From Euzebyales bacterium (GTDB lineage Bacteria; Actinomycetota; Nitriliruptoria; Euzebyales; JAHELV01): a stretch of 64,000 bases of DNA. The notes under the pieces were generated by a model that did no database searches, was not told where the DNA came from, and saw only the letters and a list, made by a program, of their open reading frames with translations. The stretch covers positions 143,305 to 207,304 of the forward strand of contig DASUUK010000024.1 of assembly GCA_036374135.1 (NCBI GenBank). Direction: 5' to 3'. Position numbers and translations under genes: made by a program. Of the stretch, positions 20,483 through 41,541 are shown one piece after another. Each line of letters opens with the position of its first letter. Positions within the stretch are counted from its first letter, which is position 1.

Positions 20483-22582
<2,100 letters not shown>

Positions 22583-41271: not shown

Positions 41272-41541
41272 ATGCTGGATCCCACGCACTCGATCGCGAT
41301 CGAGTACTGCGTCCCTTGAAACTACACCGCACGCGCCGTCGGTCTGGCGGCGGAGGTGTTGGACGGGTGGGCGCCGCTGATCGCCGACCTGCGACTCGTC
41401 CCGGCGAGCGGTGGACGCTTCGAGGTCACCCTCGACGGTGAACTGATCTTCTCCAAGAAGACCCTCGGCCGCCACGCCGAGCCCGGCGAGATCGTCGACC
41501 TGCTGCGGGCGCGCGTGGGCGCCGAGGTACTCGACCGCTGA
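41272..41541 (+). CDS. SelW-like Rdx-family selenoprotein (CxxU), UGA read as selenocysteine
   Basis: An 89-residue Rdx/SelT-SelW-SelH family protein. From the ATG at 41272 the frame reads 15 codons to CVP, then TGA at 41317-41319, then continues as NYTARAVGLAAEVL, LRLVPASGGRFEVTLDGEL and IFSKKTLGRHAEPGEI to a stop at 41539-41541. The family normally has EYCVPC; here the second Cys is UGA, giving C13-V-P-U16. Homology continues unbroken on both sides, and a SECIS-like hairpin follows four bases later. The fold is thioredoxin-like and a thiol/selenol redox role is expected; the physiological partner is unknown. It is leaderless or has a very short leader. Decoding needs selA, selB, selC and selD, which are not in this window. 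Confidence 0.88.
41324..41359 (+). promoter_or_regulatory. Bacterial SECIS element inside the selenoprotein gene
   Basis: Lower stem ACACC (41324-41328) pairs with GGUGU (41355-41359). After an internal loop (GCACG and GA), the upper stem CGCCGUC (41334-41340) pairs with GGCGGCG (41346-41352) through seven bp, one of them U-G. The apical loop GGUCU (41341-41345) is the same as in E. coli fdhF. The loop starts 21 bases after the UGA, within the known bacterial spacing. It should bind SelB. Confidence 0.85.

Follow-up and report, generated by a model that had tools for sequence, protein, structure and literature searches.

The gene at positions 41272-41541 of the window (the whole stretch of 64,000 nucleotides of Euzebyales bacterium DNA analysed here) very probably encodes a Rdx/SelW-like oxidoreductase in which codon 16, a UGA, is, to judge from sequence, read as selenocysteine (Sec) by means of a SECIS hairpin lying within the gene. 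Computed here as evidence for this are the reading frame itself, the alternation of UGA and Cys codons at this site among homologues, a hairpin that is conserved and covaries, and a full set of selA, selB, selC and selD genes in the same genome. Almost certainly the UGA is read as selenocysteine and the gene is therefore intact. The features of the frame are as follows.

41272..41541, forward strand: predicted selenoprotein gene of the Rdx family, SelW-like; ATG start, TGA stop, product of 89 residues of which residue 16 is Sec.
41317..41319, forward strand: TGA codon probably read as selenocysteine (CVPU).
41356..41541, forward strand: truncated 61-aa ORF from the mechanical ORF list; GTG start, without the redox motif.

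The frame is interrupted once only, by the TGA at 41317-41319, and its true stop is a second TGA at 41539-41541. Read through, it gives MLDPTHSIAIEYCVPU-NYTARAVGLAAEVLDGWAPLIADLRLVPASGGRFEVTLDGELIFSKKTLGRHAEPGEIVDLLRARVGAEVLDR, with a CxxU motif near the N terminus (EYC-VP-U, residues 13-16) in which the TGA occupies the second position of CxxC. The Pfam Rdx model (PF10262) matches this product with 68.8 bits (cut-off 22.6; 4.8e-19) over residues 8-79, that is, across the TGA, and the NCBIfam model of the SelT/SelW/SelH subfamily (TIGR02174, CXXU_selWTH) matches with 52.7 bits (cut-off 34.2). The initial annotation had placed family-like sequence on both sides of a TGA standing for the second Cys of the Rdx motif, and these matches, together with homologues that have TGA or TGC/TGT at the same codon, bear this out. 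Alignment with close homologues begins at residue 1, where these mostly have ATG or GTG, in support of the start. A genome-wide search for Rdx genes found this one only, flagged with one internal TGA. That gene calling would start downstream and lose the redox motif is also what the mechanical ORF list illustrates, with its ORF beginning at 41356; routine annotation would probably truncate the gene in this way, removing the active site. Two relatives with solved structures, Atu0228 (PDB 2fa8) and SAV_2001 (PDB 3dex), align with it in sequence along the entire domain (E = 2e-13 and 7e-11, respectively), and the predicted fold of the 89-residue protein, a small thioredoxin-fold, is clear enough from such matches; both relatives have Cys where the window gene has Sec.

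When 70 homologous genes were read codon by codon, the critical codon proved to be TGA in 54 and TGC or TGT in 16. The 54 Sec genes reduce to 52 that are distinct in the stretch past the UGA, namely the window gene and 51 others from several phyla. A scan of genome contigs yielded 28 loci, with TGA in all but one (L047, TGC). Within the class, the TGA form is found in 14 of the 15 genomes that have an Rdx gene, including all four of the genus; besides the window's own genome, each of these carries a single TGA in the gene. These data bear on whether the TGA might be a sequencing or assembly error for TGC or TGT, as could be imagined of a draft assembly in 115 contigs. This is extremely unlikely, because the genomes of the same genus share the TGA; moreover, the window gene has the hairpin, which is kept by Sec forms alone. 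A misread base at 41317, which the initial annotation had named as a way for its reading to fail, is likewise ruled out because the same codon is TGA in the 51 other distinct sequences.

The distribution of the two forms also follows that of selA. In a phylum sample of 396 genomes, 55 have an Rdx gene, 39 of them in the TGA form and 15 in the Cys form (a tally made by hand from tables, leaving out a fragment in G306 and treating related genomes as independent). A match to selA is found in 35 of the 39 TGA-form genomes versus four of the 15 Cys-form genomes (Fisher P = 1.3e-5, kinship ignored), and the TGA-form genomes with no selA match (G074, G130, G228 and G286) are all fragmented drafts. 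This pattern agrees with a 2006 survey of bacteria that listed ten SelW-like proteins and remarked that, among organisms using Sec, Cys homologues of the family are few (PMC1794560).

The hairpin past the UGA has the geometry first described for it, with a 7-bp upper stem, a 5-bp lower stem and a GGUCU apical loop:

41334..41352, forward strand: putative bacterial SECIS core; upper stem of 7 bp (41334-41340 with 41346-41352), loop GGUCU (41341-41345).
41336-41340 with 41346-41350, forward strand: conserved 5-bp SECIS core, part of the 7-bp upper stem.
41324..41359, forward strand: lower 5-bp hairpin extension (41324-41328 with 41355-41359), present here but unconserved.

The loop lies 21 nt from the UGA, and the minimum free energy (MFE) of 41317-41360 is -19.2 kcal/mol (-11.3 kcal/mol when only the upper hairpin is folded). 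The published bacterial SECIS (bSECIS) model calls for a loop of 3-9 nt, an upper stem of 4-16 bp and a distance of 16-37 nt from the UGA, with a G in the first two loop positions and an MFE of -7.5 or below (PMC13188914). A check against this model had been proposed and the window hairpin satisfies it, with a 5-nt loop, 7 bp, GG, 21 nt and -11.3 kcal/mol. Across both strands of the window, 98 of 1289 TGA triplets meet a version of the same model, so that model fit alone is weak evidence in GC-rich DNA and it is conservation that counts. Only one of the 1289, the TGA at 41317-41319, has downstream of it, at SECIS spacing, a hairpin of 5 bp or more whose loop is GGUCU. The raw folding energy of the locus is only modestly unusual (z = -1.74, with 11 of 200 shuffles doing as well; range of z -0.68 to -1.74), and no Rfam family matches the hairpin.

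Measured against synonymous recoding, the folding energy of the 45 nt past the UGA gives a weak signal among homologues (mean z of -0.53 for Sec forms and +0.05 for Cys forms), and for this reason a test of pairing in a fixed register was needed. This took in all 52 distinct Sec genes: 41 have all five core pairs, compared with 8.7 expected under synonymous recoding, and none of 500 simulations reached the observed Sec total. None of the 16 Cys homologues is fully paired, which is at expectation. In 43 aligned Sec genes the 5-bp core is 94.4% paired, a somewhat flattering figure in that the 43 were picked from the 52 without some near-duplicates and genes that did not fit; shifting the partner register in these 43 reduces the pairing of the whole two-helix structure. 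Three of the five core pairs covary (C-G to U-A; G-C to U-A, A-U or C-G; and C-G to U-A), and this covariation extends across phyla. The lower stem fares differently. Tried as a conserved part of the SECIS, it was rejected, with 37.7% of cells paired in relatives; even within the genus, where the window gene has all five pairs, the three other genomes have one or two. Of the two stems originally described, then, the upper one stands by its conserved and covarying 5-bp core, whilst the lower one is real at this locus but unconserved.

The loop itself is GGUCU in 34 of the 54 Sec genes. Gly is the apical residue in 34 genes, and its codon is GGU in 33 of them; of the other Gly codons downstream in these genes, 35 of 214 are GGU (P = 6e-21). 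GGT makes up 17% of the Gly codons in six frames that neighbour the gene in the window. When the bSECIS model is applied in a strict form with an energy filter, 24 of the 54 Sec homologues fall outside it, mostly because the perfect stem is only 5 bp.

Constraint of this kind at the level of the codon also weighs against the gene being a pseudogene, in which the TGA would be a nonsense mutation of a former CxxC gene. An in-frame TGA might suggest as much, given that Cys forms of the family are common elsewhere, but the hairpin past the TGA would not be expected to be held in this way, and the same codon is TGA in 51 other distinct sequences, drawn from several phyla, in which the family sequence continues intact beyond it. 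Because the TGA recurs at this codon in independent genomes, we consider this explanation refuted and a dead gene highly improbable.

If the UGA is decoded as Sec, the hairpin is also a segment of coding sequence. The residues encoded across the fourth core pair are found as Val-Thr, Val-Ala and Ala-Ala, and never as Ala-Thr (0/49; Fisher P = 4e-5, kinship ignored), a combination that would set C against A and break the pair. The core register fails in the Sec genes L031, L032, L089, L097 and L098, where the hairpin lies about 4 nt nearer the UGA, at a spacing of 17-18 nt, and its loop is GUG, CGUGA or CGUGC. It is conceivable, if somewhat short of probable, that the SECIS constrains the protein, as the covarying residues that flank the loop suggest, with Ala-Thr avoided for the sake of the pair, and that SelB may use a second register where the hairpin is shifted by about 4 nt (CGUGC or GUG loop). 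The 54 Sec and 16 Cys homologues make a useful test bed for an RNA hairpin that constrains the protein encoded through it.

Selenocysteine decoding requires that the organism be equipped for it, and the initial annotation implied as much for this lineage, naming the absence of selB and selC as grounds for rejection. Both are present, as are selA and selD, in the genome that contains the window (a 3.98-Mb draft, 96% complete, in 115 contigs). The tRNA-Sec (selC) scores 69 bits with the Rfam model (cut-off 47) and is called by ARAGORN as tRNA-SeC with anticodon tca; selB scores 313.9 bits (cut-off 242) over 648 open codons, and selA 449 bits. All three lie on one contig, C113. The selD gene (349 bits) is interrupted by one TGA, and a homologue of the formate dehydrogenase alpha subunit (Fdh-alpha) likewise contains a TGA in frame; 18 nt past it comes a 7-bp hairpin whose loop, GGUCU, is also that of the window gene:

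Locus L021, minus strand (contig C74, 8268-9188): selD, with one TGA at GAG-U-ACK.
Locus L067, minus strand, UGA at 1824-1822 of the locus (contig C74, about 21275-22018): Fdh-alpha homologue with in-frame TGA and hairpin.

The TGA in selD falls at what we take to be the family's active-site position, and the SelD of this genome is itself likely to be a selenoprotein. Besides the window gene, the genome thus encodes two or more likely selenoproteins, and the window gene adds support for the use of selenocysteine in the lineage. On contig C9 (12156-12380) a 76-codon Fdh-alpha-like stretch contains one TGA; it may be a piece of a selenoprotein, a remnant or a product of chance.

The complete Sec machinery also speaks against the UGA being read as some other amino acid (for example Trp or Cys, by a suppressor). 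Nothing turned up in favour of such a reading, and it is very unlikely: UGA also terminates the 41272-41541 gene, whose hairpin conforms to the published model of a bacterial SECIS (PMC13188914). Under selenocysteine decoding, SelB would bring Sec-tRNA-Sec to the ribosome and bind the GGUCU loop within the coding sequence, so that the UGA at 41317 would be read as Sec and the second UGA, at 41539, as an ordinary stop. In the resulting protein the CVPU motif would form a reversible Se-S bond and act as a redox centre, a role put forward for this family from its CxxU motif (PMC1088965). Translation, selenium incorporation, contact with SelB and redox activity are what conservation, taken with the established mechanism of Sec decoding, leads us to infer.

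The GGUCU apical loop and a GC-rich stem inside the gene are also features of the SECIS of Escherichia coli fdhF; the window SECIS is likewise built, and the Fdh-alpha SECIS of the same genome has the same loop, with a UGA-to-loop distance of 18 nt compared with 21 nt in the window gene. Bacterial SelW-like CxxU selenoproteins have been known since 2005, and in marine surveys no other family was as abundant (PMC1088965, PMC2398784). Compared with those of the Sargasso Sea and GOS surveys (PMC1088965, PMC2398784) and of sequenced bacteria (PMC1794560), the window gene belongs to the same Rdx/SelT-SelW-SelH family, with Sec second in CxxU and, as in those, an in-gene SECIS whose small apical loop contains a guanosine. 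Nothing essential differs; the window gene is of the CVPU-NY subtype and, to judge from its nearest loci, sits in an actinobacterial lineage resembling Acidimicrobiia. A literature search, though not exhaustive, found no paper naming the 41272-41541 gene in this lineage. The family and its use of Sec were already known, and the window gene is a further, well-supported example of an ordinary kind, which leaves knowledge of the family unchanged.

In a tree of 68 proteins the Sec and Cys forms group, with three changes of label; the columns are too few to date the switches, and the midpoint root, which serves for drawing only, sets no direction for them. The window gene falls with its own genus and with further Sec forms from Chloroflexota and of Acidimicrobiia type (18 rows, support 99/92). 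A pair of Cys forms (L087 in G209 and L093 in G189) sits among Sec forms, and both genomes keep selA. Neither gene has the GGU loop codon, the apical Gly codon being GGC in both, or the full stem, and the pair likely represents a switch from Sec to Cys.
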